In this document: in pieces, positions 9,712 to 37,345 of the stretch
Layout: each line of letters begins with the position of its first letter
Position numbering within the stretch: position 1 is the first letter of the stretch
Assembly: GCF_900104035.1 (NCBI RefSeq)
Contig: NZ_FNIT01000001.1
Coordinates: forward strand, 372,001-436,000
DNA length: 64,000 bases
Direction: 5' to 3'
Origin: Aureimonas jatrophae
GTDB taxonomy: Bacteria > Pseudomonadota > Alphaproteobacteria > Rhizobiales > Rhizobiaceae
Notes under the pieces: model-generated
Seen by the model: the letters and a program-made list of their open reading frames with translations, nothing else
Told to the model about the DNA's origin: nothing
The model's database searches: none
Program-made: the position numbers and the translations under genes

Positions 9712-9745
9712 TGCAAATTCATAGCTGCACGCTATAAATATTGCA
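9712..9745. promoter_or_regulatory. Operator-promoter palindrome of the toxin-antitoxin operon
   Basis: Imperfect long dyad: TGCAAATTCATAGC (9712-9725), 5-base centre, GCTATAAATATTGCA (9731-9745), with a perfect ATAGC-N5-GCTAT core. It is a small AT-rich island in GC-rich surroundings, includes a TATAAA -10-like element and lies 21 bp upstream of the toxin start: the usual place for an antitoxin autorepression site. Confidence 0.65.
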
Positions 9746-9766
9746 GTGGCGTGAGTTGAGGGTGTC

Positions 9767-10024
9767 GTGAGGGAGCTTCGTTTCGAACGTCAGGCCTTGA
9801 AGACGTTGAAGCGGATGCCCGCCAACACGGCGCGAACCATCCGGTCCAAGATCGATCAATATGTCGCCGATCCGGCAAGCCTTGCCAACAATGTCAAGCG
9901 GATGCAGGGCATCGACGACCTGTTCCGGCTGAGGGTCGGGGACTGGCGCATCATCTTCGGCGACGATGGCCGGGTCGTCGCGATCATCCGTATCGGTCCG
10001 CGCGGCGACGTGTACGAAGGATAA
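9767..10024 (+). CDS. RelE/ParE-superfamily toxin
   Basis: 85 residues, GTG start preceded by TTGAGGG. The pattern (RELRFERQALKTLKRMP at the N-terminus; VKRMQGIDDLFRLRVGDWRIIF, then VVAIIRIGPRGDVYEG) is that of the RelE/ParE toxin fold, with the conserved RxGDWRIIF strand and the C-terminal RIGPRGDVY element. RelE-type members cut mRNA at the ribosome, ParE-type members poison gyrase; the sequence alone does not tell which. It is paired with the HTH antitoxin 6 bp downstream, in toxin-first order. Confidence 0.87.
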   Translation: MRELRFERQALKTLKRMPANTARTIRSKIDQYVADPASLANNVKRMQGIDDLFRLRVGDWRIIFGDDGRVVAIIRIGPRGDVYEG

Positions 10025-10030
10025 AGGGCT

Positions 10031-10402
10031 ATGAACAAGCAGGTCATCGTGTCTCCGACCGGCGAGCGCCTGGTCGTCATTGCCGAAGCGGATTTCGATG
10101 CGCTGGTCGAGGCGGCGGACGATCGGTCCGACAGGGAAGCGGTCGTGGATTACCAGCGCCGGCTGGCAGCAGGCGAAACGGAGTTCGTGCCGGCCGCCAT
10201 GGTGGACCGCATTCTGGCCGGGGAAAGCGCTCTTCGTGTCTGGCGCGAGCATCGTGGTCTCAGTGTCTCGGCTCTGGCCGAGGCGGCAGGTTTGTCGCAG
10301 CCCTTTGTCAGCCAGATCGAGTCCGGCCGGCGGGTTGCGGGACGCGACAGCCTCGCGCGCCTGGCCGCAGCGCTCGGCGTCGACGCGGACGATCTCGAGT
10401 AA
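10031..10402 (+). CDS. XRE-family HTH antitoxin of the RelE/ParE pair
   Basis: 123 residues, ATG 10031 after AAGGG. Two parts: an N-terminal segment (IVSPTGERLVVIAEADFDALVEAA) that looks like the N-terminus of Phd/YefM-type antitoxins, and a C-terminal Cro/C1 HTH (residues ~65-120, VWREHRGLSVSALAEAAGLSQPFVSQIESGRR). It probably neutralises the toxin and, as the DNA-binding partner, autoregulates through the palindrome at 9712-9745. Which half contacts the toxin is inference. Confidence 0.85.
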   Translation: MNKQVIVSPTGERLVVIAEADFDALVEAADDRSDREAVVDYQRRLAAGETEFVPAAMVDRILAGESALRVWREHRGLSVSALAEAAGLSQPFVSQIESGRRVAGRDSLARLAAALGVDADDLE

Positions 10403-10421
10403 AAGGGTTTCGACAAGCGAA

Positions 10422-10441
10422 GGGCGCCGTCTCCGGCGCCC
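10422..10441. terminator. GC-rich hairpin between the antitoxin and the RND permease
   Basis: GGGCGCC (10422-10428), GTCTCC loop, GGCGCCC (10435-10441) between convergent genes. Only a broken T-rich tail (TGTGTCTAT) follows, so termination efficiency is uncertain. Confidence 0.5.
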
Positions 10442-10452
10442 TGTGTCTATCG

Positions 10453-13400
10453 TCATTCCGCCGGGGCGGGATGGCCGCCGCCGTGGCTCACGGTCTGCGG
10501 TGGCTGCGGCGCGGCGGCTGCCGGCTTCTTCCGGTCCCGTGCGAGCAGCTTGTAGAAGAGCGGGATAAAGAAGATCGCGACAAAGGTCGCCATCAGCATG
10601 CCGCCGATCACGCCCGTGCCGATCGAGTGGCGGCTGGCCGACGAGGCGCCGGTCGCGATCGCCAGCGGCACGACGCCGAGAATGAAGGCGAGCGAGGTCA
10701 TCACGATCGGGCGGAAGCGGAGCTTGGCGCCTTCCAGCGCCGCGTCGAAGGCCGACAGACCCTCCTCGCGTTTGAGCACCGCGAACTCCACGATCAGGAT
10801 GGCGTTCTTGGCCGCCAGTCCCACCAGCGTCACGAGGCCGATCTGGAAGTAGACGTCGTTCTCGAGCCCGCGCGCCCAGATCGCGGCGAGAGCCCCGAAC
10901 ATGGCGAAGGGAACGGCGAGAAGCACCGCGATCGGCAGCGACCAGCGCTCGTACTGGGCGGCGAGGATCAGGAACACCATGATCATGCCGAAGCCGATCG
11001 CGATCGCGCCCGTGCCGCCGGCCTGGATCTCCTGGTAGGCCGAGCCCGTCCACGCGACCACGAAGCCTTCCGGAAGAGACTGGCTCGCAACCTCCTGCAT
11101 GGCCTGCAACGCCTGGCCCGACGAGTAGCCGGGGGCGGGGCCGCCCGAGACCTTGGCCGAGGTGAAGGCGTTGAAGCGCTCGATGAGATCGGGACCGACG
11201 ATGCGCTTGGTGATCAGGAGCGAGTCCAGCGGCACCATCGAGCCGTTCGACGCCTGCACGTAGACGAAGCGCAGGTCCTCGGGCTTCTCGCGGAAGTCGG
11301 ACTCCGACTGGAGCGAGACGCGGTAGTTGCGGCCGAGCAGTGTGAAGTCGTTCACGTAGAGCGAGCCGAAGGTCGACTGCATGGTCTCGAAGATCGAGGC
11401 GATGGGAACGCCAAGCGCCTTGGCCTTCTCGCGGTCGACGTCGATCTGGTACTGCGGCACGTTCGCCTCGAACGAGGTGCGCACGCCGGCGAGCTCCGGC
11501 CGCTTCGAGGCTTCGGCGACCAGCGCGCCGGTCGCCTCGATCAGGGCCTGGCTGCCACGGCCGCCGCGGTCCTGCACGAAGAGCTCGAAGCCGCCCGTGG
11601 TCGACAGGCCCTGGATCGGCGGCGGCGAGAAGGCCAGCACCATCGCGTCCTGAATACCGCTATTCATGCCGATGAAGGGGCCCGGCAGGTTGCGCGCGTC
11701 GAGGTCCGGCGTCGGACGCTCTGACCAGTCCTTCAGCGTGATGAAGGCGGCGCCCGCAGACGACTTCTGCGACCCCGACAGAAGGTCGAAGCCTGCAAAG
11801 GCCACGACGTCCTTCACCGCCGGATGGTTGCGGATGTTGGCGCTCATCTCGTTCATGACGTCGGTCGTGCGCGAGAGCGAGGCGGCCGGCGGCAGGATCG
11901 CGACGCCGAAGTTCGAGCCCTGGTCCTCGTTGGGCACGAGCGAGCCCGGCAGCGTTTGGAAGAGATAGGCCGTGCCGCCGAGAAGCGCCGCGAACAGGAC
12001 GAGGGCCAGGAACGCGCGGCGCATGATGAAGGCGACGCCATGCCCGTAACCGTTGGTCAACCGGTCGAACATGCGGTTGAACCAGCGGAACGGCGCGATC
12101 GGCTCCTTGTGCTCTTTGCGCAGGAGAAGCGCGCAGAGGGCCGGGGTCAGCGTCAGCGCCACGATGCCCGAGATCGTCACCGACACGGCGATGGTCACGG
12201 CGAACTGACGGTACATCGTGCCCGCCAGACCGCCGAGGAAGGCGACCGGGATGAACACGGCGCAGAGCGTGAGCACGATCGCGATGACGGGACCCGTCAC
12301 CTCGGTCATGGCCTTGGCGGTGGCATCGGCCGGCGCCAGTCCCTCGTCGCGCATGATGCGCTCGACGTTCTCCAGCACCACGATCGCGTCGTCCACGACG
12401 ATGCCGATGGCGAGCACGAGGCCGAACAGCGTGAGGAGGTTGATCGAGAAGCCGAGCGCGAGAAGCACGCCGAACGTGCCGATGATCGACACGGGCACCG
12501 CGATCATCGGGATCAGCGTCGCGCGGAAGCTCTGGAGGAAGAGGTAGACGACCACCAGCACCAGCACCATCGCCTCAATGAAGGTGTGGATCACCGACTC
12601 GATCGAGGCCTCGATGAAGAGCGTCGTGTCGAACGGCACGGCAAACGAGATGCCGTCCGGGAACTGCTTCGACAGCTCGGTCATCCGCGTCTCGACCGCC
12701 GACAGCACGTTCAGCGCGTTCGCGCCGGGCTGAAGGTAGAGGCCGATCGGCACCGTCTGGTTGCCGTTGTAGGTGGCGTTGAACGAGTAGTCCTGCGAGC
12801 CGAGCTCGACGCGCGCGACGTCCTTCAGAAGCAGCGCGCCGCCGTTGGCGTCGGAGCGGATGATGATATTCTCGAAAGCCTGCGCGTCGGGCAGGCGGCC
12901 GGCCGTGGTCACCGAATAGGTGAAGGCAAGCGGGTTGTTCGAAGGCTGGGCGCCGAACTGGCCGGCGGCGAACTGGGCGTTCTGCTCGCGGATCGCGGTG
13001 GCGATGTCGGTCGGCGTCAGGTTGTACTGCGCGAGCTGGTCGGGACGCAGCCAGATGCGCATGGAGTAGTTGCGCGCGCCGAAGAGCTGCGCGTTGCCGA
13101 CGCCGGGAATGCGCTTCAGCTCGTCGAGGACGTAGAGCAGCGCGTAGTTCGACACGTAGGTCGCGTCGTAGCGCGGGTCGGTCGAGGTCATGGTCGCGAC
13201 CGCGAGGATCGACGACGACTGCTTGGTCACGGTCACGCCGAGGCGCTGCACCTCGGAGGGAAGCGAGGAGACGGCCTGCTGGACGCGGTTGTTGACGTTG
13301 ATCGTCGCCTGGTCGGGGTCGGTGCCCGACTGGAACGTCACGGTGATCGTGGCCGTGCCCGTCGAGGAGTTCGACGAGGTCATGTAGATCATGTCCTCGA

Positions 13401-13617
13401 CGCCGTTGACCTGCTGCTCGATCGGCGCCGACACGGTCTGTGCGATGGTCTCGGCGGAGGCGCCGGGATAGGTCGCCGCGATCTGGACCTGCGGCGGCAC
13501 GAGTTGGGGATACTGCTCGATCGGCAGCGCGCGCATGGCGGCGAGGCCGCCCAGCACGATGATGATCGAGATGACGGCCGCGAAGACCGGCCGGTCGACG
13601 AAGAAGCGCGAGTTCAT
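10453..13617 (-). CDS. RND multidrug efflux pump, inner-membrane permease (AcrB/MexB, HAE1 family)
   Basis: 1054 residues, the usual size. Twelve transmembrane segments with two large periplasmic loops are recognisable: N-terminal [24 protein letters not shown]4 [20 protein letters not shown] with the paired proton-relay aspartates, and TM10 [21 protein letters not shown] with the conserved lysine. It exports hydrophobic drugs by proton antiport together with the adaptor encoded just upstream; no outer-membrane channel gene is in the window. ATG 13617 overlaps the adaptor stop as TGATG; a GTG one codon earlier is an alternative start. Probably controlled by the divergent TetR regulator. Confidence 0.94.
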
Positions 13618-14819
13618 CACTGGGCCTCGGCGACGGAGCTGGCGGGGGCGGCGGAGGCCTGGGGCACCTGCCCGGCAGGCGAGGAGCCGGCGGGCGTCTC
13701 GACTGCGCCGGTCGGCTGGACCGGCGAGCCGGGCCGGACCTTGATGACGCCGACCGTCACGACGCGGTCGCCGCCCTGCAGGCCGTTCGAGACAAGGAGG
13801 CGGTCACCGAGCTCGCGCCCGACCGTGACGGGCCGCACCGCCGCGACGTTCTGCGCGTCGAGCGCATAAACGAAGGTGCCCTGCGGACCCTGCATGAGCG
13901 CGGCCGTCGGGATGGTGACAGCGTTCGGGACCTTGAGGCCCTCGACCTCGACGCGGACGAACTGGCCGGGCAGCAGGCGCGAATCGGGGTTAGGCAGGAC
14001 GGCGCGCGACAGGATCGTGCCGGTCTGCGTGTCGATCGAGGAGCTCAGGAAGTCGATCGAGCCGGTCTGCGCGTAGGTCTCGCCGTTGCCGAAGCGCACG
14101 GACACCTTGAGGTCCTCGAGCGAGCCTTCCGCCGTGCCGCTCTCGATCTGCTGGCGAATCGACTGGGCTTCCGTGTCGGCGGGCGAGAAGTTGACGTAGA
14201 TCGGGTCGAGCTGCGTGATCTGGGTCAGGAGCGCGCCCTGCTGGATCAGCGAGCCTTCCGGCACCTGTTCCAGCGAGGTGATACCGCCGGCCGATGCGGT
14301 GACCGTGGTGTAGCCGAGCGAGAGTTGGGCGGTTTGGAGCCGCGCCTCCGCCTGCGCGACCGCCGCATCGGCGAGTTCGCGCTGCGAGCGAGCGTCGTCC
14401 AGCGTTGCGGTGGATGTCGCGCCGGTGCGGGCCAGCGACTGGGCCCGCTCCTCGGTGCGCTGGGCCTGGGACTGCTGCGCGCGGGCCTGCGTCACCTGCG
14501 CTTCCGCCAGCGCCACCTCGGCCTGGTAGGGCTTGGGATCGATGCGGAACAGCGTGTCGCCCTCGTTGACGCGGGCGCCCTCGTTGAACGAGCGCTCCAG
14601 GAGGATGCCGCCGACCTGCGCGCGGATCTCCACGAGACGCGAGGCGGCGACCCGCGCCGGATACTCATAGGTCACGGGAACGGTGGAGGGGGTCACCGTC
14701 TCCACCGTCACGGCCGGCGGGGGCGGAGCGGCGCCGCCGCCGGGCGCACCCTGCGCAAAGGCCCATCCCGAGGAAGCCAGCAGCGGAAGCGCGAGGAGGA
14801 GTGCGCGGGAGGAGGGCAT
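13617..14819 (-). CDS. RND efflux pump periplasmic adaptor (membrane fusion protein)
   Basis: 400 residues. Signal peptide about 1-23 ([17 protein letters not shown]), then a Pro-rich linker, barrel-sandwich hybrid halves ([33 protein letters not shown]), an alpha-hairpin rich in Ala/Gln/Arg ([23 protein letters not shown]), and beta-barrel and membrane-proximal domains ending with a Ser/Pro/Ala-rich tail. It bridges the permease and an outer-membrane channel. ATG 14819 follows GGAG at 5 bases. It is first in the operon; its promoter overlaps the 14858-14879 operator. Confidence 0.93.
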
Positions 14820-14854
14820 CGTGGCTCCGGGAACTTGGATATTGCGTTGCAGCG

Positions 14855-14883
14855 AACATACATTCATAAATGGATGTATTCAA
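14855..14883 (-). promoter_or_regulatory. Predicted promoter of the efflux operon
   Basis: On the minus strand TTGAAT (14883-14878), 17-base spacer, TATGTT (14860-14855). The spacer is filled almost exactly by the TetR operator palindrome, so repressor binding would block RNA polymerase. Confidence 0.6.
14858..14879. promoter_or_regulatory. AcrR/TtgR-type operator between the efflux operon and its TetR regulator
   Basis: Near-perfect 22-bp palindrome ATACATtCATaaATGgATGTAT. It closely resembles, from memory, the Escherichia coli AcrR operator core (ACATACATT...AATGTATGT). It is centred in the 75-bp divergent intergenic region. Confidence 0.75.
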
Positions 14884-14894
14884 GGAGGGCCACG

Positions 14895-15539
14895 ATGCGC
14901 CGCACCAAGGAAGCCGCCGACCAGACACGCGCCAGCATCCTCGATGCGGCCGAGACGGTTTTCTTCGAGCGCGGCGTCAGCCAGACCTCGCTGTCGCACA
15001 TCGCGGCGGCGGCCGGTTGCACGAGAGGAGCGATCTACTGGCACTTTCGCGGCAAGTCGGACCTCTTCATGGCCATGCGCGAACGCGCCTTCCTGCCGCA
15101 GGAGGAGTTCTTCGAGGCGCAGAACATCGTGTCCGATCCCGACCCGCTGGAGGCGCTGCATCGCACCACGATCGAGAGCCTTCAGCGCTTCGCCGCCGAC
15201 GAGCGCGCGCAGCGCGTGGTCGCGATCCTGACGCTGCGCTGCGAGTATGTCGGCGAGATGGAGGAGGCGACGCTGTGCCAGCGCGAGGCGGACGCGCACA
15301 TGCACAGCAACATCCGCCGTGCCTTCGAGCGGGCCGCGCAGCTTGGACATCTGGCCGCCGAGTGGACCCCCGAGCGCGCGACGGATGCCTGCGTCTGCGT
15401 CTTCACCGGCCTGTTCAACCATTGGTTGCGCTCGGGCGAGAGCTTCGACTTCCCGACGCTCGGAGCCCAGCTCTTCGACGGGCTGTTTGCCCAGATGCGC
15501 GCCGCTCGCGCCCCGGCGCAGCTCGCCGCCGCCGAGTAG
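14895..15539 (+). CDS. TetR-family repressor of the efflux operon (AcrR/TtgR-like)
   Basis: 214 residues. N-terminal TetR HTH (residues 10-55: TRASILDAAETVFFERGVSQTSLSHIAAAAGCTRGAIYWHFRGKSDLF) matches AcrR/TtgR/SmeT very well. The C-terminal ligand pocket (CEYVGEMEE, ACVCVFTGLFNHWL) also fits this drug-sensing subgroup. ATG 14895 has an ideal AAGGAGG (14882-14888) six bases upstream. Divergent from the RND operon with a shared operator, so it should repress both promoters and be released by pump substrates. Confidence 0.92.
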   Translation: MRRTKEAADQTRASILDAAETVFFERGVSQTSLSHIAAAAGCTRGAIYWHFRGKSDLFMAMRERAFLPQEEFFEAQNIVSDPDPLEALHRTTIESLQRFAADERAQRVVAILTLRCEYVGEMEEATLCQREADAHMHSNIRRAFERAAQLGHLAAEWTPERATDACVCVFTGLFNHWLRSGESFDFPTLGAQLFDGLFAQMRAARAPAQLAAAE

Positions 15540-15561: not shown

Positions 15562-15945
15562 TCAGACGGTCCGGCACGGCGTGCGGAAGCGCCCGTTCAG
15601 TTCCGCGCCGGAACGCCGCGTCTCCCGAATCGAAGGCATCGGCAACGCCGCCTCCTGTCCCGCCAGGAGGCGTCGCACCGCAATGTGCCGGTTGAGGTCG
15701 TAGCGTGCATCGCCCCGCAGCGCCGCGCGGCGCAATCGCTCGTTTTCGCGCGTCAGCGCGGTGCGAGCGGCGTCCGGAAGCGGAAAGCGCGCGCCCTCGA
15801 AGCCGAGACGGCCGAGAAGGGATTCGGCCGACCGGCGAATCGGGTCGGTGGATCTCTGCAGCCGGTCGCCAAAGGCGGCAACCGCTTCGGCGAGCGCGGC
15901 TTCGAACGCGTGCAGGGCGGGAGAGGCAGGGGTGGATGCAGGCAT
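15562..15945 (-). CDS. Conserved-looking hypothetical protein
   Basis: 127 residues, start ATG 15945 with AAGGAG six bases upstream, which favours it over an upstream in-frame ATG at 16122. Not recognised. It is mostly helical by composition, with charged amphipathic stretches (AFEAALAEAVAAFGDRLQRS, ARTALTRENERLRRAAL) and a conserved-looking DLNRHIAVRRLLAGQEAALPMPSIRE segment. No signal peptide or membrane segment. It ends 22 bp from the convergent TetR gene and is divergent from the gafY-like gene. Confidence 0.7.
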   Translation of the reverse strand: MPASTPASPALHAFEAALAEAVAAFGDRLQRSTDPIRRSAESLLGRLGFEGARFPLPDAARTALTRENERLRRAALRGDARYDLNRHIAVRRLLAGQEAALPMPSIRETRRSGAELNGRFRTPCRTV

Positions 15946-16090
15946 GGACGGCTCCTTGCGATCGAGTGTCGAGCCGCAAGGGTGAGGGATCGGAAGCGGG
16001 CGGGAAGAAATCGGGGACGCGGGAGCGACTAGCTGGAAGCCTCGGGAGCCGCACACGTAGGCGTTGCGGACACCAACATTTTTTTCTGAA

Positions 16091-16110
16091 GTCCGGAAAA
16101 TATTCCTGAC
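16091..16110. promoter_or_regulatory. 20-bp dyad in the promoter region of the gafY/gafZ-like operon
   Basis: GTCcGGAAaATaTTCCtGAC: 16 of 20 positions are symmetric. It lies just upstream of and overlapping the predicted -35. Half-sites GGAAAAT and GGAATAT recur, in opposite arrangement, upstream of the GTA cluster at 26953-26970. Confidence 0.6.
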
Positions 16111-16130
16111 TCGTATGTTCACGGTATGTT
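16103..16130 (+). promoter_or_regulatory. Possible promoter of the gafY/gafZ-like operon
   Basis: TTCCTG (16103-16108), 16-base spacer, TATGTT (16125-16130), 33 bp before the ATG at 16164. The -10 context GGTATGTTCT resembles GGGTAGGTTCT at the GTA promoter. Confidence 0.4.
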
Positions 16131-16163
16131 CTCTTATCTCGTCACCGATGCCGTGAGTCGAAC

Positions 16164-16559
16164 ATGCCCCAGCCCCGCGCCACGCCTCGCAACGGTCGCC
16201 CCGCCGCTCCGCCGCCGGACCCGGCGCGCCGACGTCGCGGGCGATTGCAATGCCGTGTCTCGGTCGAGATCGCCGCGGCCTTCACGGGCGTCAGCAGTCT
16301 CGAGATCCTGTCGGCGCATCGCTCCGGCTCCGCCGTCTCGCGGGCGCGGCATCTTGCCATGTATCTTGCCCATGTCGCGTTCCAGCTACGCTACGCCCAG
16401 GTGGCGGAGGGCTTCGGGCGGGACCGCAAGAGCATCGTCTATGCGGTGGAGCGCATCGAGGACGCGCGCGACGACGAGGTGTTCGACCGGCAGCTGACGC
16501 AGCTCGAACGCCTTGCCGGCTCGTGCCGCCAGCTGTCGAGCGAGGATGACGGCGCATGA
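16164..16559 (+). CDS. DnaA-domain-IV-like helix-turn-helix protein; candidate GTA activator GafY
   Basis: 131 residues. After a basic Pro/Arg-rich N-terminus, residues ~45-105 (EILSAHRSGSAVSRARHLAM, then YLAHVAFQLRYAQVAEGFGR, DRKSIVYAVERIED) match the DNA-binding domain IV of DnaA (compare SRPRQIAMYL and GRDHTTVLHA), but the AAA+ ATPase is absent, so this is not an initiator. It overlaps the following DUF6456 gene by ATGA. GTA activators (GafA in Rhodobacter; split GafY and GafZ in Caulobacter) combine a DNA-binding part with a second domain that I recall as DUF6456-like. The pairing plus a GTA cluster 10 kb away makes GafY the best guess; not proven from sequence. Confidence 0.7.
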   Translation: MPQPRATPRNGRPAAPPPDPARRRRGRLQCRVSVEIAAAFTGVSSLEILSAHRSGSAVSRARHLAMYLAHVAFQLRYAQVAEGFGRDRKSIVYAVERIEDARDDEVFDRQLTQLERLAGSCRQLSSEDDGA

Positions 16560-17026
16560 GCGCCGCGCGCGGTTCGACCGAGACGCCCCTGATGCGCCTC
16601 GGCAAGCGGCGCGGCGCGGACGGCGTGCCGTTCCTCGCCCCCGAGGAGGTCGAGGCCGGCGAGCGCCTGGCGCGCGACTGGATGCGCGGCCAGCTCATGC
16701 CCTCCGTGACGCAAAGCTGGAGCGGCATGCCGGCGGGCGGAACGGGCGGAGCCGGCGCGGGCGCCGACATCGGCGACTTCGCGCTCGAATGCCGGACGCG
16801 CGTCGCCCGCGCGCTGGACGCGGCGGGGCCGGAACTCGCCGGCGTCCTCGTCGACATCTGCTGCTTCGAGCGCGGGCTGGAGGACGTGGAACGGGCCCGC
16901 CAATGGCCGCGACGCTCGGCAAAGCTCCTTCTGAAGGCCGGCCTCTCCGTTCTCGCCCGGCACTACGGTCTCGTTCACGAGAGCGGCGGCGCGGGCGGTG
17001 CGACGCGCGCCTGGCGCAAAAGCTAG
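16556..17026 (+). CDS. DUF6456 protein; candidate GTA antiterminator/activator GafZ
   Basis: 156 residues, ATG overlapping the previous stop (ATGA), so the two are co-translated. The pattern PLMRLGKRRGADGVPFLAPEEVEAGERLARDW...QLMPSVTQSW and a C-terminal LLLKAGLSVLARHYGLV element fit DUF6456. In Caulobacter GafZ is reported to act with RNA polymerase and Nus factors to read through terminators in the GTA cluster. The GTA cluster in this window has terminators in exactly such positions. Functional call is inference. The stop overlaps the convergent sufE stop at CTAG. Confidence 0.72.
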   Translation: MSAARGSTETPLMRLGKRRGADGVPFLAPEEVEAGERLARDWMRGQLMPSVTQSWSGMPAGGTGGAGAGADIGDFALECRTRVARALDAAGPELAGVLVDICCFERGLEDVERARQWPRRSAKLLLKAGLSVLARHYGLVHESGGAGGATRAWRKS

Positions 17027-17448
17027 GCGGCTTCCGCCAGCGCGGCCTGCGCGTCGCGGCGGATGCGGCCGACCATGGAGCGCAGGCCGTTGGAGCGCTG
17101 CGGCGTCAGGTGCTCCTTCAGACCCAGCTCGGCGAACACCGTCTCGGCGTCGAGCGCCAGGATCTCGGGCGCGGTCTTGCCGGAATACAGCGCCAGCGTG
17201 ATCGCCACGAGCCCGCGCACGATGTGAGCGTCCGAGTCGCCCTGAAAGAAGAGGTGCGGCGGCGAGGCGGCGTCGTGCCGGCTGAGGAGCCAGACCTGGC
17301 TGACGCAGCCCGGCACCTTGTTCTCGTCGTTCGTCGCGCCCTCGGGAAGCGGTTCGAGTTCGCGCCCGAGCTCGATCACGTAGCGATAGCGATCCTCCCA
17401 GTCGTCCAGGAGTTCGAAGTCGGCGAGAATGTCGTCGAAGGTCCGCAT
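17023..17448 (-). CDS. sufE: SufE-family cysteine-desulfuration protein
   Basis: 141 residues. The acceptor cysteine C48 lies in the conserved VPGCVSQVWL loop; SufE takes persulfide sulfur from the SufS desulfurase for Fe-S cluster assembly in the cytoplasm. Start ATG 17448 chosen because a GGAAGAG-type ribosome-binding site precedes it and SufE proteins begin at this point; an in-frame ATG ten codons earlier lacks one. The rest of the suf operon is not in the window. Confidence 0.92.
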   Translation of the reverse strand: MRTFDDILADFELLDDWEDRYRYVIELGRELEPLPEGATNDENKVPGCVSQVWLLSRHDAASPPHLFFQGDSDAHIVRGLVAITLALYSGKTAPEILALDAETVFAELGLKEHLTPQRSNGLRSMVGRIRRDAQAALAEAA

Positions 17449-17500
17449 GATGATCCGCTCTTCCTGTGCCGCCCTCATATAGGCGGTCCGGCGCGGATCG

Positions 17501-26952: not shown

Positions 26953-26967
26953 TTCCTAGAATAGGAA
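26953..26967. promoter_or_regulatory. Operator-like inverted repeat upstream of the GTA promoter
   Basis: TTCCTA-GAA-TAGGAA, perfect 6-bp arms, in an AT-rich island 9 bp upstream of the predicted -35. The right arm continues as GGAAAATAGTC; GGAAAAT and GGAATA half-sites are shared with the dyad before the gafY-like gene. Confidence 0.6.
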
Positions 26968-26975
26968 AATAGTCA

Positions 26976-27004
26976 TTGACACCGTGACGGTCCGTGGGTA
27001 GGTT
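26976..27004 (+). promoter_or_regulatory. Predicted sigma-70 promoter of the GTA cluster
   Basis: TTGACA (26976-26981), 17-base spacer, TAGGTT (26999-27004). Expected start near 27011, giving a ~97-base leader that contains an intrinsic terminator before gp1. Confidence 0.65.
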
Positions 27005-27036
27005 CTGTCTACGGTCGAGATAGTGCGGGTTGCGCC

Positions 27037-27076
27037 AAGGGCGCTCGCTTCCGGAAACGGAGGGAGCGCCCTTTTT
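27037..27076 (+). terminator. Intrinsic terminator in the GTA leader (attenuator or sRNA 3' end)
   Basis: AAGGGCGCTC (27037-27046) pairs perfectly with GAGCGCCCTT (27064-27073), followed by a T5 run (27072-27076). It stands between the predicted promoter and gp1 at 27108, so transcription must pass it to express the cluster. Confidence 0.8.
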
Positions 27077-27107
27077 CGTGCCCGCTCGGGGACAGGGGAA
27101 CGCAATC

Positions 27108-27410
27108 ATGGGCGAGACGAAGACGACGCGCGTGCCGCCGCCGCGCCTTTCGGAGCGCCTGCTGCGGGCCCTAACGCAGGAGATCGAGCTTCTCGAAGGC
27201 GACGCCAGCGAGGGAGCCGGCGGCAAGGCGCGCGTCGAGGCGATCTCGCTTCTTGCGCGCACTTTGGAGAAGCTGCTCGACCTGTCGCGCCTGGAACGCG
27301 AGCCTGCGACGGAGGGCGCGGCCGGCGAGGGGGAACGCCTGCGCAAGGAGCTGATGCGCCGTCTGCGCGCCCTGCACCGGCGCGAGGCGGGCGGGGAAGC
27401 GCTGGCGTGA
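27108..27410 (+). CDS. GTA gp1, small-terminase-like protein
   Basis: 100 residues, ATG 27108 with AGGGGA 8 bases upstream. Two predicted helices (LSERLLRALTQEIELLEGDA and KARVEAISLLARTLEKLLDLSRLE) and a basic C-terminus (LRKELMRRLRALHRRE). In RcGTA the short gp1 before TerL has been described as a divergent TerS that lacks specific pac recognition; position and size here match. Sequence similarity alone would not identify it. Stop overlaps the terminase GTG. Confidence 0.72.
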   Translation: MGETKTTRVPPPRLSERLLRALTQEIELLEGDASEGAGGKARVEAISLLARTLEKLLDLSRLEREPATEGAAGEGERLRKELMRRLRALHRREAGGEALA

Positions 27411-28723
27411 GCGCGGCGCACGAGGGGCCGGCGGATGATGCCTTCTGGCGCGACCTCGAACGCCGTCTCGCCGGGCTGCCGCCCCGCGTTCTGCGCGAGG
27501 CGATGCCGCCCTGGAGCGCGATCGCGCGCCGCTCGCAGCGCCCGCCGCCCGGACCCTGGCGCCAGTGGCTGCTGATGGGCGGGCGCGGCTCCGGCAAGAC
27601 GCGAGCCGGAGCCGAGTGGATCCGGGCGCAGGCGCTGGGCGAGAGGCCCTTCGCCAGCCGGCCGCACGGACGGATCGCGCTGGTGGCCGAGACGCTCGGC
27701 GACGCGCGCGAGGTGATGGTGGAGGGCGAGAGCGGGTTGCGCTCGCTGGACTACGGCGAGCGCCCGGTCTTCGAGGCGACGCGTCGTCGGCTCGTGTTCG
27801 CGAACGGCGCGATCGCGCAGATCTTCTCCTCGGAGGACCCCGACAGCCTACGCGGCTACCAGTTCGATGCGGCCTGGGGCGACGAGCTCGCCAAGTGGAC
27901 GCATGACGAGGCGACGTTCGACAACCTGCAGCTGGCGCTTCGCCTCGGCGAGGATCCGCGCATGGTTCTCACCACGACGCCGCGCCCGGTGCCGCTGGTG
28001 AAGCGGCTGCTGGGCGAGGACGGCACGGCGGTGACGCGCATGCCGACCGGCGACAACCGGGAGAATTTGGCGGCGGGCTTCCTTGCGGCGATGGAGCGGC
28101 GCTACGGCGGCTCGCGCCTCGGGCGACAGGAACTCGACGGCGAGATGGTGGAAGGGCGCGAGGACGCGCTGTTCCGGCGCGAGCGGATCGACGCCGGACG
28201 GCTGCGCGCCGCGCCCGAGCTGCGGCGCATCGTGGTGGCCGTCGACCCGCCGGCCTCGGCGACCCGTCGCTCCGATGCTTGCGGGATCGTCGCGGCGGGC
28301 CGCGCGGCGGACGGGATCGTCTACGTTCTCGCCGACCGGTCGCGGCGCGGCCTCTCGCCGCCGCAATGGGCGGAGCGGGCGGTGGCGCTGTTCCGCGAGC
28401 TGGAGGCCGACCGGATCGTCGCCGAGGTGAACCAGGGCGGCGACATGGTGGAGGCGGTGATCCGGGCGGTGGCGCCGGGCGTGCCGGTGTCGGGCGTGCG
28501 GGCGACGCGCGGCAAGTGGCTGCGCGCCGAGCCGGTGGCCGCGCTCTACGAGCAGGGGCTGGTGCGCCATGTCGGCGGCTTTCCCGAACTCGAGGACGAG
28601 ATGGCCGACTTCGGCCCGGACGGCCTGTCGAACGGCCGTTCGCCGGACCGGCTCGACGCGCTGGTCTGGGCGGTGACGGCGCTCGGCGGCCCGGTGATCG
28701 AGCCGCGCGTCAGGACGATCTGA
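27407..28723 (+). CDS. GTA gp2, terminase large subunit (DNA-packaging ATPase/nuclease)
   Basis: 438 residues from GTG 27407 (GTGA overlap with gp1). Walker A GGRGSGKT (58-65), Walker B FDAAWGDE (153-160), then an RNase-H-like nuclease domain starting IVVAVDPPAS with the metal-binding aspartate and ending NGRSPDRLDALVWAVTAL. It drives DNA into the capsid and cuts it; in GTAs packaging is by headful of random host DNA. Confidence 0.93.
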   Translation: MSAAHEGPADDAFWRDLERRLAGLPPRVLREAMPPWSAIARRSQRPPPGPWRQWLLMGGRGSGKTRAGAEWIRAQALGERPFASRPHGRIALVAETLGDAREVMVEGESGLRSLDYGERPVFEATRRRLVFANGAIAQIFSSEDPDSLRGYQFDAAWGDELAKWTHDEATFDNLQLALRLGEDPRMVLTTTPRPVPLVKRLLGEDGTAVTRMPTGDNRENLAAGFLAAMERRYGGSRLGRQELDGEMVEGREDALFRRERIDAGRLRAAPELRRIVVAVDPPASATRRSDACGIVAAGRAADGIVYVLADRSRRGLSPPQWAERAVALFRELEADRIVAEVNQGGDMVEAVIRAVAPGVPVSGVRATRGKWLRAEPVAALYEQGLVRHVGGFPELEDEMADFGPDGLSNGRSPDRLDALVWAVTALGGPVIEPRVRTI

Positions 28724-28733
28724 GGAGACATCG

Positions 28734-29945
28734 ATGGTGGGACCAGTGGAGAGGCTGCGCGCCTGGGCGCGCGGGCCGGACGGCGCGCGTGCGCCCGAGC
28801 GCAAGGAGGGCGGGTTCCACGGGGGCGCGCTTGTCTTCGCCGGCGGGCAGTCGGACGGGGCGAGCTGGAGCGAGCGGGGCTACGTCTCGGCGGCGCGCGA
28901 GGGCTTCATGCGCAACCCGGTGGCCTATCGCTGCGTGCGGCTCGTCGCCGAGAGCACGGCCGCGGTGCCGCTGATCCTTTACGACGGATCGCAGGAGGTG
29001 GCCGAGCATCCGATGCTCCAGCTGCTGCGCCGCCCGAACGGCGCGCAGGACGGCGCGGCGCTGGTGGAGGCACTATGCGGGCATCTGCTCCTGTCGGGCG
29101 CGGCGCATCTGGAGGCCGTCGCGCTGGACGGGGTGCCGCGCCTTCTCCACGCGCTGCGGCCCGATACGGTGCGCACGATCGCCGGGGCGGACGGCTGGCC
29201 GACGATGGTCGAGGTTCGCCACGGCGAGGGCGTGCGCCGCTTGGCGCTCGACGGCGACGGCGGGCGGCCGCCGCGCATTCTGGCGATCCGCCTCTTTCAT
29301 CCGCTGAACGGGGCCGACGGCTTTGCGCCGCTGGAGGCCGCGCGCACCGCGCTCGACCTGCACAACGCGGCGACGCGCTGGAACAAGGCGCTGCTCGACA
29401 ACTCGGCCCGGCCGAGCGGGGCGCTGGTCTACCAGCCGGGCGACGGCTCGAACCTGTCGCCCGACCAGTTCGACCGACTGAAGAGCGAGCTGGAAAGCGG
29501 CTATGTCGGCGCGGCGCGGGCCGGGCGACCGATGCTGCTGGAAGGCGGCCTCGACTGGAAGACCATGGCTCTCTCGCCCCGCGACATGGACTTCGTGGAG
29601 GCGCGCAACGGGGCGGCGCGCGACATCGCGGTCGCCTTCGGTGTTCCGCCGATGCTGCTCGGCATTCCCGGCGACGCCACCTACGCGAACTACGCCGAGG
29701 CCAACCGGGCGCTGTTCCGGCTGACGGTGCTGCCGCTGGTCGCGCGCCTGTGCGCGGCGGTCGGCGACTGGCTGGCCGCGCTCTATGGCGAGCCGGCCTT
29801 GCGGCTCGGCTTCGACGCCGACCGGATCGAGGGTCTGGCGCAGGAGCGAGAGGCCCTGTGGCGGCGGCTCGGCGGGGCGGAGTTCCTGTCCGAGGACGAG
29901 AAGCGCGAGGCGGTGGGCTACGGCCCGCGCCGGACCGCGCGCTGA
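28734..29945 (+). CDS. GTA gp3, HK97-type portal protein
   Basis: 403 residues; phage portal family motifs FMRNPVAYRCVRLVAESTAAVPL, LHNAATRWNKALLDNSARPSGAL and FGVPPMLLGIPGDATYANYAEANRALFRLTVLPL. Forms the dodecameric DNA gateway of the head. Ten bp after the terminase. Confidence 0.93.
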   Translation: MVGPVERLRAWARGPDGARAPERKEGGFHGGALVFAGGQSDGASWSERGYVSAAREGFMRNPVAYRCVRLVAESTAAVPLILYDGSQEVAEHPMLQLLRRPNGAQDGAALVEALCGHLLLSGAAHLEAVALDGVPRLLHALRPDTVRTIAGADGWPTMVEVRHGEGVRRLALDGDGGRPPRILAIRLFHPLNGADGFAPLEAARTALDLHNAATRWNKALLDNSARPSGALVYQPGDGSNLSPDQFDRLKSELESGYVGAARAGRPMLLEGGLDWKTMALSPRDMDFVEARNGAARDIAVAFGVPPMLLGIPGDATYANYAEANRALFRLTVLPLVARLCAAVGDWLAALYGEPALRLGFDADRIEGLAQEREALWRRLGGAEFLSEDEKREAVGYGPRRTAR

Positions 29946-29974
29946 CCTTTCCCATTCACTGATGGAGGCAAGCC

Positions 29975-30322
29975 ATGGATACGACGGTGGCCGGGGACGT
30001 CGCGTCCCCGCTCGTGCTCCTGGGCGCGAAGTGCGCCGGGGCGATCGGCGGCTCGGTGATCTCGATCGCCTATCTCCTGCCGGAAGGGCGACGCGAGGCG
30101 GCGACCCGCTTTCTGATCGGGCTCGCGACCGGACTGGTGTTCGGGGGGCCGGCGGGACTTCTTCTGGCCGACCATCTCGGCTTCGGGCAGGCGCTCGGCG
30201 CCACCGAGACGGCGGTGATGGGTTCGGCGGCGGCCAGCCTATCGGCCTGGTGGGCGCTGGGGGCGCTCGGACGCTTCGCGGACGGCCTGTTCCGGCAGCG
30301 CCGCCGGGGAGGCCGCTCGTGA
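29975..30322 (+). CDS. Small membrane protein in the GTA cluster (DUF6107-like)
   Basis: 115 residues with three hydrophobic stretches (AGAIGGSVISIAYLLP, FLIGLATGLVFGGPAGLLLA, VMGSAAASLSAWWALGALG), no signal peptide. Proteins of this size and topology stand between portal and protease in Hyphomicrobiales GTA clusters (I recall the name DUF6107). Role unknown; could be a holin-like or capsid-assembly factor. Ribosome-binding site GGAGG. Stop overlaps the protease GTG. Confidence 0.75.
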   Translation: MDTTVAGDVASPLVLLGAKCAGAIGGSVISIAYLLPEGRREAATRFLIGLATGLVFGGPAGLLLADHLGFGQALGATETAVMGSAAASLSAWWALGALGRFADGLFRQRRRGGRS

Positions 30323-30849
30323 ACCCCGCCCGGCTGGAATCCGACGGGACCGTCAGGGGTTACGCCAGTCTGTTCGAGCGACCCGACAGCGGCGGCGACC
30401 GCGTGGAGCGCGGCGCCTTCCGCCGCTCGCTGGCACAGCGCGGCGCGGCGGGCGTGCGCATGCTCTGGCAGCACGACCCGGCGCGACCGATCGGCATCTG
30501 GACGCGCCTCACCGAGGACGCGGTCGGGCTCTTCGCGGAAGGGCGCCTGGCGCTCGCGTCGGGCGCCGGGCGCGAGGCCTTCGAGCTCGTGCGGGCCGGC
30601 GCGATCGACGGCCTGTCGATCGGCTTCCACACGCGCCGGGCGCTGCCGCTGCGCGACGGACGCGCGCGGCGCAGCCTCGTCGAGCTCGACCTCTGGGAGA
30701 TCTCGATCGTCACCTTCCCGATGCAGGAGGCCGCGCGCGTCACGCAGACGCGCTCGGCCGCGCGGCCGGCCCGCGACCTGTCCGTGCGCCTCGTCGAGGC
30801 GGCGCGACGCCTGCTGCTGCCACCCGCGGCGCCCCTGGCCCTGCGCTGA
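30319..30849 (+). CDS. GTA gp4, HK97-family prohead protease
   Basis: 176 residues from GTG 30319 overlapping the previous stop (GTGA). Family landmarks: VRGYASLFERPDSGGDRVERGAF, MLWQHDP with the catalytic histidine region, and IDGLSIGFHTR with the catalytic serine, then LWEISIVTFPM. Cleaves the N-terminal scaffold part of the capsid protein during maturation. Confidence 0.92.
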   Translation: MNPARLESDGTVRGYASLFERPDSGGDRVERGAFRRSLAQRGAAGVRMLWQHDPARPIGIWTRLTEDAVGLFAEGRLALASGAGREAFELVRAGAIDGLSIGFHTRRALPLRDGRARRSLVELDLWEISIVTFPMQEAARVTQTRSAARPARDLSVRLVEAARRLLLPPAAPLALR

Positions 30850-30883
30850 ACCCTTCACCTTCAAGCCAACAAGGATGGATCCG

Positions 30884-32146
30884 ATGCACACGATGCCCAT
30901 GACGTCGCCCGAGACCAAGGCCGCGGACGCGCCGCGCGGCGCCGAAACGACGGATGCCTTCGACGAGTTCATGCGCGCCTTCGAGGGCTTCCGCGAGGCG
31001 AACGACGAGCGCCTCGCGCAGATCGAACGGCGCATGAGCGCCGACACGGTGACGCAGGACAAGGCGGACCGCCTGTCCCGCGCGATGGACGAGCAGGAGC
31101 GGCGCCTGGAGCGCCTCGTCCTGAAGGGGCTGCGACCGCCGGTGGGCGGCGCCTCGGACGGCGCCATGCCGGAGCCGAGCGAGCACCGCTCGGCCTTCGA
31201 GAGCTACGTGCGCGGCGGCGACGAGAACCGCATCCGCCGCCTGGAAGAGAAGGCGATGTCGGGCCTGGCCGGCCAGGACGGCGGCTTCCTGGTGCCGCCC
31301 GAGACCGAGACCGAGATCGGGCGACGGCTGGCCGCCGTGTCGCCGATCCGCTCGATCGCGAGCGTGCGGACGGTCTCGTCGACCGTGCTGCGTAAGCCGT
31401 TCGCCGTGAACGGCGCGCAGACGGGCTGGGTGGGCGAGGCCGACGCGCGGCCGCAGACCAGCGCGCCGCAGCTTTCGGAGCTGAGCTTCCCGACCATGGA
31501 GCTCTACGCCATGCCCGCGGCCACCGCCGCGCTGCTCGACGACGCGGCGATCGACCTCGATCGCTGGCTCGGCGAGGAGGTCGAGCAGGCCTTCGCGACC
31601 CAGGAGGGCGCGGCCTTCGTGACGGGCGACGGCGTCGCCAAGCCCAAGGGCTTCATGACCTATCCGACGGTCACGGAAGCCGATTGGGCCTGGGGCAAGG
31701 TCGGGACGGTCGCGACGGGGGCTGCGGGCGGCTTCCTCCCGGGGCTCGGCGGCGACGCGCTGATCGACCTCGTCTATGCGCTCAAGGGCAGCTACCGGCA
31801 GAACGCGACGTTCGTGATGAACCGTCGCACGCAGAGCGCCGTGCGAAAGCTCAAGGACGCCGACGGCAACTACCTCTGGGCACCGCCGAGCGTGGCGGGC
31901 GGACGCGCTAGCCTGATGGGCTTCCCGGTGGTCGAGGCCGAGGCCATGCCCGACATCGCGGCCGGGGCGAAGGCGATCGCCTTCGGCGACTTCGCGCGGT
32001 TCTACCTCGTGGTGGACCGGCAGGGCGTGCGCGTCCTGCGCGATCCGTATTCCGCCAAGCCCTACGTCCTTTTCTACACGACCAAGCGCGTGGGCGGAGG
32101 CGTCCAGGACTTCGACGCGGCGAAGCTTCTCGCCTTCACGGTCTGA
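30884..32146 (+). CDS. GTA gp5, HK97-type major capsid protein
   Basis: 420 residues. The first ~110 residues are charged and helical (FDEFMRAFEGFREANDERLAQIERRM, then KADRLSRAMDEQERRLERLVL): the scaffold part removed by the protease. From MSGLAGQDGGFLVPPETETEI the HK97 shell fold begins, with AAFVTGDGVAKPKGFM, ATFVMNRRTQSAVRKLKDADGNYLW and GFPVVEAEAMP typical of the family. ATG 30884 is preferred over ATG 30875, which sits directly on the AAGGATGG ribosome-binding site. Confidence 0.94.
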   Translation: MHTMPMTSPETKAADAPRGAETTDAFDEFMRAFEGFREANDERLAQIERRMSADTVTQDKADRLSRAMDEQERRLERLVLKGLRPPVGGASDGAMPEPSEHRSAFESYVRGGDENRIRRLEEKAMSGLAGQDGGFLVPPETETEIGRRLAAVSPIRSIASVRTVSSTVLRKPFAVNGAQTGWVGEADARPQTSAPQLSELSFPTMELYAMPAATAALLDDAAIDLDRWLGEEVEQAFATQEGAAFVTGDGVAKPKGFMTYPTVTEADWAWGKVGTVATGAAGGFLPGLGGDALIDLVYALKGSYRQNATFVMNRRTQSAVRKLKDADGNYLWAPPSVAGGRASLMGFPVVEAEAMPDIAAGAKAIAFGDFARFYLVVDRQGVRVLRDPYSAKPYVLFYTTKRVGGGVQDFDAAKLLAFTV

Positions 32147-32152
32147 CCGGGC

Positions 32153-32178
32153 GGGCCGGGCGGCAGGCCGTCCGGCCC
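32153..32178 (+). repeat. GC-rich hairpin after the major capsid gene
   Basis: GGGCCGGGCGGC (32153-32164) and GCCGTCCGGCCC (32167-32178) with one mismatch and a 2-base centre; no T-run. May protect capsid mRNA 3' ends or slow polymerase, which would raise capsid levels over downstream genes. Confidence 0.5.
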
Positions 32179-32205
32179 ATCTTCCAGCAATCCGAGGGTG
32201 TATCC

Positions 32206-32754
32206 ATGATCTGGATCGAGACCAACGCGCCGGCCGACGAGCCGGTGGGCGTGGCGGAACTGCGTGCCTTCCTGCGCCTCGAGCGCGAGGACGAGGACGC
32301 GCTGCTCGTGCGCCTCCTGCGGGCGGCGCGCGAGGACGTGGAGCGGCGCACCGGGCTGCTCGTCGCCGAGCGAACGGGACGGCTCGTCGTGGAAGCGGCG
32401 GTGGGCACGCTGACGCTCGGCTTTCGGCCGGTCACCGCGGTGCTCGGCGTCACGCTGTTCGACGAGCAGAGCGAGACCCGCGCGGGCGACCCCGCCGATG
32501 TCCGGTTCGAGAATACGCCGCTGCGCACCCGCCTTCACTGGCGCCGTGCGGTCGCGGCGCCGGGCGGCGCGGAGCTCGAGCTGCGGGCCGGGTTGCCGCC
32601 CGAACTCGTGCCGGAATCGCTGCGGCTCGCCATGCTGCGACTGGCGGCGACGAGCTACGAGACGCGCACGCTGCTCGCCCCGGCGCTGCAGCCCGACACG
32701 ATCCCGCCGCTGGTCGGCAGCCTCCTGTCGCCCTACCGGAGCCTGGCGATCTGA
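32206..32754 (+). CDS. GTA gp6, head-tail connector (adaptor)
   Basis: 182 residues; VAELRAFLRLEREDEDALLVRLLRAAREDVERRTG is the helical gp6/adaptor motif that docks on the portal, followed by beta-strands (LTLGFRPVTAVLGVTLFDE) and a C-terminal helix. Stop TGA overlaps the next ATG (TGATG). Confidence 0.87.
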   Translation: MIWIETNAPADEPVGVAELRAFLRLEREDEDALLVRLLRAAREDVERRTGLLVAERTGRLVVEAAVGTLTLGFRPVTAVLGVTLFDEQSETRAGDPADVRFENTPLRTRLHWRRAVAAPGGAELELRAGLPPELVPESLRLAMLRLAATSYETRTLLAPALQPDTIPPLVGSLLSPYRSLAI

Positions 32755-33086
32755 TGGGGACGCTGTTTCTGGACGCGGGGCTGCTGCGGCACCGGGCGCT
32801 GATCGAGCGCAACGACCCGGTGCCCGACGCGATGGGCGGGGCGGCGGATCGCTGGCACGAGGTGGGCGAGGCTGCGGTCCGCGTCGAGCCGGCCCGCGCC
32901 GAGGTTTCGCCGGAGGCCGGACAGCGGATCGCCCGCATCACGCATCGCGTCACGCTGCGGCATCGCGACGGGCTCGAGCGCGGCATGGCGTTTCGCCTCG
33001 GTTCCCGGCGGCTCGTGATCCGGACGCTGCACGACCCCGACGAGACGGGACGCTATCTCGTTTGCCGCTGCGAGGAGGAGCGGTGA
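32754..33086 (+). CDS. GTA gp7, head closure (stopper) protein
   Basis: 110 residues; SPP1 gp16-type head-completion fold with HRALIERNDPVPDAMGGAADRWHEVGEAAVRVEP and ITHRVTLRHRDGLERGMAFRLGSRRLVIRTLHDPDETGRYLVC, the typical phage head-tail adaptor pattern. Overlaps neighbours on both sides. Confidence 0.87.
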   Translation: MGTLFLDAGLLRHRALIERNDPVPDAMGGAADRWHEVGEAAVRVEPARAEVSPEAGQRIARITHRVTLRHRDGLERGMAFRLGSRRLVIRTLHDPDETGRYLVCRCEEER

Positions 33087-33259
33087 GGGCGCTCGTGCGA
33101 CGACCGGCCGGCGCGAAGCTGCGCGCCCGCATGCTGCGCCAGCTGCGCGAGCGGCTCGCGCGCGACCTCGAACGCCGCCTGGACCCGCTGCCGCGCGGCG
33201 ATAGCCGGAGGGTCGAAGATGAGGAAAAGTTAACGGATCCGCTGGACGCGCGTGCCTGA
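33083..33259 (+). CDS. Small basic protein inside the GTA cluster
   Basis: 58 residues from GTG 33083, overlapping the gp7 stop (GTGA) and preceded by GAGGAGGAG. Composition is strongly charged (KLRARMLRQLRERLARDLERR is one amphipathic helix; the end is acidic). No family recognised. Perfect coupling, good ribosome-binding site and the lack of any other reading frame here favour a real gene. Confidence 0.6.
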   Translation: MRALVRRPAGAKLRARMLRQLRERLARDLERRLDPLPRGDSRRVEDEEKLTDPLDARA

Positions 33260-33324
33260 TCACGCCACATTTCAGTGCATATATTCCGTGACACGCACAT
33301 CGTGAAACAGGGAGATCACCGGCC

Positions 33325-33738
33325 ATGATGCAGGCCAGCGCCGAACTGCAGACCACGATCGTCTCCGCGCTGACGGGCGACCCGGCGCTGACCGCGATGC
33401 TGGGCGGGCCCAAGGTCTTCGACCGGCAGCCCGAACGGGCCGCCTTTCCCTACCTGACGCTGGGACGTACGGCGGTGGTGGACTGGTCCACGGGCTCCGA
33501 GGACGGGTCCGAGCATATCCTGACGCTTCATGTCTGGGGACGCGGCGGCTCGAAGCAGGAAACCTACGCGATCATGGACAAGGTGACGAACCGGCTCCAC
33601 GACGCGACGCTTCCGATGGACGGGCACCGGCTGGTGAACCTGCGCCTTCAGTTCGCGGAAGCGCGGCAGGAGCCGGACTCGCCCGCCTATCACGGCATCC
33701 TGCGCTTCCGGGCGGTGACCGAGCCGCTCGCCTCCTAG
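33325..33738 (+). CDS. GTA gp8, DUF3168 tail-terminator-like protein
   Basis: 137 residues; DUF3168 pattern LQTTIVSALTGDPALTAMLGG, VFDRQPERAAFPYLTLGRTAV and HILTLHVWGRGGSKQETYAIMDKVTNRLHDA. Homologues act as the tail terminator/completion ring. Preceded by a 65-bp AT-richer gap and followed by an intrinsic terminator. Confidence 0.9.
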   Translation: MMQASAELQTTIVSALTGDPALTAMLGGPKVFDRQPERAAFPYLTLGRTAVVDWSTGSEDGSEHILTLHVWGRGGSKQETYAIMDKVTNRLHDATLPMDGHRLVNLRLQFAEARQEPDSPAYHGILRFRAVTEPLAS

Positions 33739-33767
33739 CGCGCCCCATCCACCACCGACGCCATCGC

Positions 33768-33798: not shown

Positions 33799-33824
33799 CG
33801 TTTTCCGATCAGGGATCGACGCTC

Positions 33825-34782: not shown

Positions 34783-34783
34783 C

Positions 34784-35386: not shown

Positions 35387-35388
35387 CC

Positions 35389-37339: not shown

Positions 37340-37345
37340 GGCACT

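Follow-up and report, generated by a model that had tools for sequence, protein, structure and literature searches.

Two overlapping genes, gafY and gafZ, very likely form the on-switch of a gene transfer agent (GTA) cluster that lies nearby in a 64,000-nucleotide stretch of the Aureimonas jatrophae genome (contig NZ_FNIT01000001.1, positions 372,001 to 436,000; hereafter the window, in whose own numbering coordinates are given). Comparison of the regulatory DNA with that of related genomes suggests that DNA damage flips this switch. We consider it probable, well short of certain, that the pair is the split form of GafA, the activator of an RcGTA-type cluster, and that it works through release from LexA, GafY binding to a dyad, and antitermination by GafZ. 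The identity of the pair is not new, since split gafA operons and the GafY and GafZ proteins are already published (PMC9638019, PMC9632790; statements on published systems follow the available portions of the cited papers throughout). What can be read base by base here is the regulatory DNA: the identity is ordinary, and the layout of the mechanism differs from that of Caulobacter. Through the comparison, candidate GafY, GafZ, pause, and LexA sites can be named to the base.

Results

gafY (16164–16559, + strand) encodes a 131-residue DnaA-domain-IV-like DNA-binding protein without an ATPase, and an ATGA overlap joins its 3′ end to the start of gafZ (16556–17026, + strand), which encodes a compact, 156-residue DUF6456 protein. 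These coordinates, the overlap, and the Pfam matches agree with an earlier sequence-only reading of the window, and its proposal that the pair is the split GafA activator is supported by the two families, by sufE downstream, and by the published split operons of Hyphomicrobiales. Residues 36–98 of GafY match PF08299 (Bac_DnaA_C; E = 1.5e-9, 38.1 bits, cut-off 31.5), with no other Pfam family at E ≤ 1. Its family profile gave six matches to PDB sequences at E ≤ 0.01, every one DnaA, as were the 12 top PDB fold matches of the AlphaFold model (predicted local distance difference test score 93.5); GafY has the DnaA domain IV fold without an AAA+ domain. It falls below the cut-offs of the PRK06030-type equivalog models of NCBIfam (NF004688, 81.6 of 136 bits; NF004686, 67.3 of 148; NF004687, 41.8 of 181), all of which carry the name hypothetical protein, not GafY. 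GafZ matches PF20057 (DUF6456) at E = 1.3e-43 (148.8 bits, gathering cut-off 26.3) and is the sole DUF6456 match in the 4.59-Mb genome; its profile had no match among PDB sequences at E ≤ 1, and its Foldseek search none at E ≤ 0.001.

The cluster itself (27023–41233, + strand) runs from a terminase open reading frame (ORF) listed from 27023, with its true start probably near 27407, to the GTA_TIM protein, and holds terminase, portal, DUF6107, capsid, connectors, tail genes, NlpC/P60, and the 1295-residue GTA_TIM protein (37346–41233). The −35 element of its promoter lies about 9.95 kb downstream of gafZ on the same strand, close to the 10 kb given in the sequence-only reading. Pair and cluster also track each other, which that reading had proposed to check. 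Among 199 genomes of the same family, DUF6456 occurs in 165 and GTA_TIM in 150, with both in 145, gafZ only in 20, GTA_TIM only in 5, and neither in 29 (Fisher p = 7e-17); the corresponding numbers for 347 genomes of the order are 224, 47, 8, and 68. The pair is not universal in genomes without a GTA, as 29 of the 49 family genomes lacking GTA_TIM also lack DUF6456. Six genomes of one genus, g3 (G069, G105, G136, G209, G229, and G309), have no GTA_TIM and only weak DUF6456 matches (E from 1e-7 to 3e-10); in this genus activator and GTA cluster seem to decay together.

The sequence-only reading had also called the pair unusually close to its target, and this did not hold. Among the matches listed (150 of the 165 gafZ genomes and 139 of the 150 GTA_TIM genomes of the family, and likewise the matches listed for the order), 124 family genomes have both positions; in 96 the two share a contig, never more than 100 kb apart, and in 91 of these 96 the GTA lies downstream of gafZ on the same strand, at a median distance over the same-contig genomes of 24.1 kb (22.1 kb in the window). 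The two are on separate contigs in the remaining 28 genomes, which draft assemblies cannot resolve. Within the order sample, 37 of 86 genomes have both on one contig, 34 of them in the same arrangement as the family. The closeness is ancestral synteny and no oddity; same-strand upstream linkage is the rule in the family and common in the order. In family f34 the linkage is broken, gafZ and the GTA lying about 1.5 Mb apart on one contig in G142 and G235. We found no mention of the linkage in the available parts of the cited literature, and it may still have been published.

Base-level comparison used 57 loci, that is, the 58 linked loci within 27.5 kb minus G441, with the window standing for its own genome (G000). 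gafY, gafZ, sufE, a histidine kinase gene, and a PBP gene are present in all 57, and terL and the portal gene in 56, in the conserved order gafY-gafZ-sufE-histidine kinase-PBP-terL-portal (the loci having been selected for linkage). In the window the DnaA-like gene stands directly before the DUF6456 gene, with sufE following, and sufE (17023–17478, − strand; PF02657), a published synteny marker, converges on gafZ. GafZ is 156 residues long in the window and 150–178 in its clade, compared with 251–280 in 44 of the 46 loci that do not belong to the clade, and the short proteins lack an N-terminal winged-helix domain of about 100 residues that most relatives have. Judged by position, the missing part would be the central region of GafA, which in R. 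capsulatus lies between two DNA-binding modules and which the window GafZ does not have. In one relative of the window's clade (L109:1248–2207, + strand), gafY and gafZ form a single open frame, a GafA-like fusion. A search of viral contigs for GafZ relatives gave 33 pattern stretches, none of them confirmed.

We identify a rigid block of about 69 bp in front of the GTA cluster (26960–27027 in the window), present in 54 of 56 linked loci, with the ungapped consensus before terL AATAGGAAAATAnTCC-TTGACA-CCGTGACGGTGCTnTGG-TAGGGT-TCAGn-TATnGT-CGGAAAAnTGCG. Its elements are a dyad that reaches the −35, the palindrome CCGTnACGG in the spacer, and an invariant −10-like element at +1. In the window, the core promoter (26976–27004, + strand) consists of −35 TTGACA (26976–26981), a 17-bp spacer, and −10 TAGGTT (26999–27004), a spacing that is constant and ungapped in 49 aligned loci. 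The dyad, TAGGAAAATAGTCAT (26962–26976, + strand), reaches the −35; the palindrome ACCGT-G-ACGGT (26981–26991, + strand; ACCGTGACGGT) sits between −35 and −10, as in the GTA promoter of the Caulobacter system, and is a candidate GafZ-binding element. TACGGT (27010–27015, + strand; YAYNRT), at about −1 to +5, is a candidate sigma-dependent pause element, and downstream of it the block ends with TGCG (27024–27027, + strand).

A matrix built from 34 exact-core loci finds the block in the 54 of 56 loci, including 20 of 22 outside the training set, with no second match above 14 bits in any of these loci. Over all 53 blocks (L121, scoring 36.8, was left out), conservation begins near −52 and stops sharply after +17, the start being placed 7 nt after the −10; at least four of the five dyad pairs of the spacer palindrome are kept in 40 loci, YAYNRT at about −1 to +5 in 53 of 53, and TGYG at the block end (+17) in 41. 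A model, R1, made from the 49 of 53 blocks scoring at least 45, was found in 201 of 344 order genomes, 199 of which have DUF6456 and 177 GTA_TIM. Where R1 and GTA_TIM are listed on one contig, as in 41 order genomes, the block always precedes GTA_TIM on the same strand, by 9–20 kb in 40 and by 60 kb in one (multi-copy genomes G101, G132, G184, G227, G263, and G279 and second hits of a few others were left out). In a class-wide sample R1 occurred in 3 of 190 genomes, namely the window's own and two of the same order, and in none outside the order, with strict filters that may lose weak matches. The promoter pattern gave 101 stretches in viral contigs, for which chance is possible, and at least 119 in genome contigs, including unrelated Streptomyces and Alicyclobacillus; the matches listed there also include contigs of the order named Rhizobium and Agrobacterium (names only).

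Two genomes of genus g26 in order family f20 (G227 and G263; L143–L162) carry up to 14 near-identical copies of a GTA-type promoter each. Sequence was taken for 20 of the 27 promoter sites: the copies at L145 and L155 precede ORFs that by eye resemble terminase, 8 of 11 other copies examined sit between convergent ORFs and are aimed into the facing gene, and seven copy sites pair between the two genomes, again by eye.

The dyad, AGGA-N6-TCCT with half-sites TTWTTCCTA as an inverted pair, recurs upstream of gafY, in the window as TCCGGAAAATATTCCTG (16092–16108, + strand) around the palindrome GGAAAATATTCC (16095–16106). When a 17-bp matrix derived from GTA promoters only is run over the 57 loci, its top match upstream of gafY outscores each of the 18 control windows in 53 of them; of the 1026 control windows, 4 reach or exceed the score of the site in their own locus. 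Across the whole genome, TAGGAAAATANTCCT at up to two mismatches has five sites against two for the reversed control, two of the five being the GTA promoter (one mismatch) and the gafY promoter (two mismatches). The operator stands at about −35 of gafY in the window's clade. We take the half-site to be akin to a DnaA box, a likeness to be expected because GafY is a DnaA-domain-IV protein, and TTATTCACA itself occurs in L080 and L082. The dyad is a candidate GafY operator at both promoters. An operator-like site with two mismatches also precedes, by about 90 bp, an ORF that by eye resembles the replicative helicase DnaB (L128; G000:C13:17304–17318, − strand), which may be chance.

The gafY promoter of the window contains a candidate LexA (SOS) box, GTTC-N7-GTTC (16117–16131, + strand), overlapping a putative −10 TATGTT (16125–16130). 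From the window alone this is weak evidence, since its 64 kb hold six exact matches where 1.5 are expected; the box gained weight only because of relatives. In 20 of the 57 loci, the 300 bp upstream of gafY contain GTTC-N5-WT-GTTC on the sense strand, where 0.03 are expected, and in no locus do they contain it on the other strand (the expectation comes from the rest of the same loci, with 3 matches in 1.74 million positions). The box lies exactly 38 bp upstream of the operator, over the −35, in 15 of these 20 loci and at 36–41 bp in three more; that of the window is on the opposite side of the operator compared with the other loci. Further matches in the genome precede parC, ssb/uvrA, dnaE, and an imuA-like ORF (below its family cut-off). 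Outside the family there is hardly any sign of SOS boxes, with one of 30 order-level loci (L010) having a box upstream of gafZ. LexA is said to act via CckA in Rhodobacter (PMC9638019), and LexA sites are predicted at the GTA cluster of Dinoroseobacter (PMC6473078); in our search of the literature on LexA and gene transfer agents, no description of a gafYZ box in Hyphomicrobiales came up.

Ahead of the first cluster ORF, the leader contains an intrinsic-terminator-like hairpin followed by T5 (27037–27076, + strand; about +27 to +66), with a score of 34.4, equalled in 0 of 20 shuffles, and a leader fold z of −3.3. Of 54 leaders, 17 contain a candidate terminator scoring at least 25, a score reached by 5 of 1080 shuffles (each leader shuffled 20 times in two-base blocks). 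With the start site placed from the −10, the window shows the arrangement of Q-type promoters, in which a −10-like element (+1 to +6) is soon followed by a terminator, and antitermination through the GTA leader would be the natural reading of this layout.

Between promoter and large terminase, a small ORF (27108–27410, + strand) sits where a small terminase would and is a candidate by position. Upstream of gafY, no mucR or helix-turn-helix (HTH) gene was recognized, the ORF at 15562–16122 (− strand) having no Pfam or NCBIfam match at E ≤ 1. Further upstream (9719–15539), by eye, are a resistance-nodulation-division-type efflux pair (− strand) and a divergent TetR-like ORF, where relatives reportedly carry mucR.

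Discussion

We establish directly the genes and their families, their synteny and co-occurrence, and the conservation and position of the DNA elements around them. On this basis we propose that LexA would keep the gafYZ promoter down until DNA damage occurs, and that loss of LexA would then lead, through GafYZ, to activation and antitermination. GafY would bind the AGGA-N6-TCCT dyad at two places, the gafY promoter and the DNA immediately preceding the GTA −35, and at the latter it would be positioned for direct contact with sigma-70. GafZ would bind the CCGTnACGG palindrome between −35 and −10, be loaded on RNA polymerase held at the −10-like element around +1, and take the polymerase through the leader terminator and over the 14-kb cluster. 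The pairing of proteins with elements, pausing, antitermination, and LexA control are what we infer from this arrangement.

Several observations weigh against this proposal. The matrix scan finds no block at L086 and L096; R1 is missing from 47 of the 224 order genomes that have both DUF6456 and GTA_TIM, and it occurs in 24 order genomes with no GTA_TIM match, 22 of them with DUF6456 (e.g., G233, G295, and G311); these 24 may have incomplete clusters, undetected TIM domains, or different targets. Best leader terminator scores stay below 20 in 31 of 54 loci. Genome-wide, the LexA pattern has 12 matches versus 11 for the reversed control; the window is alone among the 11 loci of its clade in having an exact box, and the second half of that box overlaps the conserved −10. 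The window's gafY dyad, with its two mismatches, is equalled by three other genomic sites, and in the wider family the gafY operator mostly overlaps −10/+1, the position of a repressor rather than an activator. The layout also differs from Caulobacter, where the GafY site lies far upstream and needs IHF (PMC11150451).

These points bear on four alternatives. The LexA box of the window could be fortuitous, with SOS control real in other genera and lost or replaced in the window's clade, and we give this a substantial chance, somewhat below even. All ten clade relatives lack the exact box, one of them (L070) having it with a single mismatch, and the gafY promoter of the clade has a different layout; on the other side, the same pattern stands elsewhere in this genome upstream of parC, ssb/uvrA, dnaE, and the imuA-like ORF. 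We think it unlikely that, with gafYZ still the GTA activator, the shared dyad serves another co-controlling regulator, such as a repressor or nucleoid protein, while GafY binds elsewhere as in Caulobacter. The DnaA-box-like half-site suits a DnaA-domain-IV protein, and the GTA dyad is placed where an activator touching sigma-70 would be; pointing the other way are the repressor-like placement at gafY in the wider family and the mapped Caulobacter site (ACTATG mutated, far upstream), which is unlike the dyad (PMC11150451). That the main role of the 69-bp block is to signal packaging, or to act as an RNA element within the GTA transcript, appears very improbable: conservation reaches +17, beyond a normal promoter, but the −35/17 bp/−10 spacing is exact and ungapped in 49 loci, conserved bases extend upstream of the −35, and one genus has copies of the block away from the GTA. 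We see next to no chance that the pair controls chromosome replication via DnaA instead of the GTA, as was once proposed for HdaB (the first name of the Caulobacter homologue) and as the DnaA-like domain of GafY might suggest, since GTA co-occurrence, synteny, and an operator common to the GTA promoter all argue otherwise, as do Gozzi et al. (PMC9632790).

If the proposed LexA–GafYZ switch is correct, the direct SOS link would mean that particles are made when DNA is damaged, consistent with the DNA-repair role that Gozzi et al. proposed for the Caulobacter GTA (PMC9632790). Much more tentatively, and with less than even confidence, we suggest that the GTAs of the whole order are governed by a phage-like switch for late genes that has been domesticated, in which SOS/LexA releases GafYZ, GafY acts at the −35 dyad, and GafZ acts as a Q/AlpA-like antiterminator at palindrome and +1 pause through the leader terminator, and that the complete module has spread in genus g26 to more than 10 further sites, mostly between convergent genes. 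Turning on GafYZ in that genus would then additionally cause genome-wide antisense transcription resistant to terminators.

Among known systems, several published GafA forms resemble the pair. Fogg 2019 already noted the split of gafA (PMC6363796), and Sherlock & Fogg 2022 described it in Hyphomicrobiales as a small DnaA-like gene with a DUF6456 gene after it and sufE alongside (PMC9638019), the same order as here. The sequence-only reading had given these two ORFs a specific job; the activator identity is supported, and the job was already in the literature. Gozzi et al. named GafY and GafZ and found an adjacent GafY for 494 of 759 GafZ homologues (PMC9632790), and Kogay et al. reported gafA in 196 of 208 alphaproteobacterial genomes (PMC9765227). 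Published Hyphomicrobiales DUF6456 proteins are mostly about 22–32 kDa, compared with 150–178 residues in the window's clade, and the upstream neighbour here shows no mucR or HTH recognition; GTA linkage, an operator, and an SOS box at gafYZ were not found in the available part of that account (PMC9638019). Likewise, the available portions of the cited literature do not report the promoter block, the shared dyad, the LexA box, or the short GafZ of the window's clade. R. capsulatus GafA has the same two DNA-binding modules (PMC9638019, PMC6363796) and differs in being one chain of 42 kDa, with an omega-binding region at its centre, and in having CtrA and GtaR act at its promoter.

Lambda Q at PR′ and Pseudomonas AlpA are alike in a binding element between −35 and −10 (PMC11150451, PMC7969949), a −10-like element near +1, and a terminator soon downstream, and AlpA also in a DNA-damage trigger, which the pair would share. 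At PR′, polymerase pauses at about 16 nt because of the −10-like element, which spans +1 to +6 (PMC4604602), and AlpA acts on terminators that start 26 and 54 nt downstream, upon DNA damage (PMC7969949). The resemblance is in working, not membership; Tran & Le describe GafZ as lacking similarity to Q/AlpA-type antiterminators (PMC11150451).

The closest system is GafY/GafZ of Caulobacter crescentus (CCNA_01111/01112), likewise a two-gene operon with a DnaA-domain-IV GafY (PMC9632790, PMC11150451), a GafZ homologous to the C-terminal part of GafA, a palindrome between −35 and −10, and a terminator to be read through. Tran & Le showed activation by GafY together with IHF and presented evidence that GafZ antiterminates: GafY contacts RpoD domains 3–4, and the antiterminator GafZ needs the palindrome. 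They noted that a GafY motif was hard to derive from chromatin immunoprecipitation sequencing and that the elements of R. capsulatus GafA are unmapped at nucleotide resolution (PMC11150451). Caulobacter has the GafY site far upstream with IHF, a degenerate −35, a terminator after the first gene, and the RogA repressor (PMC11150451), whereas in the window the dyad abuts a good −35, the candidate terminator falls within the leader, a candidate LexA box is present, the palindrome has another sequence, and GafZ is short.
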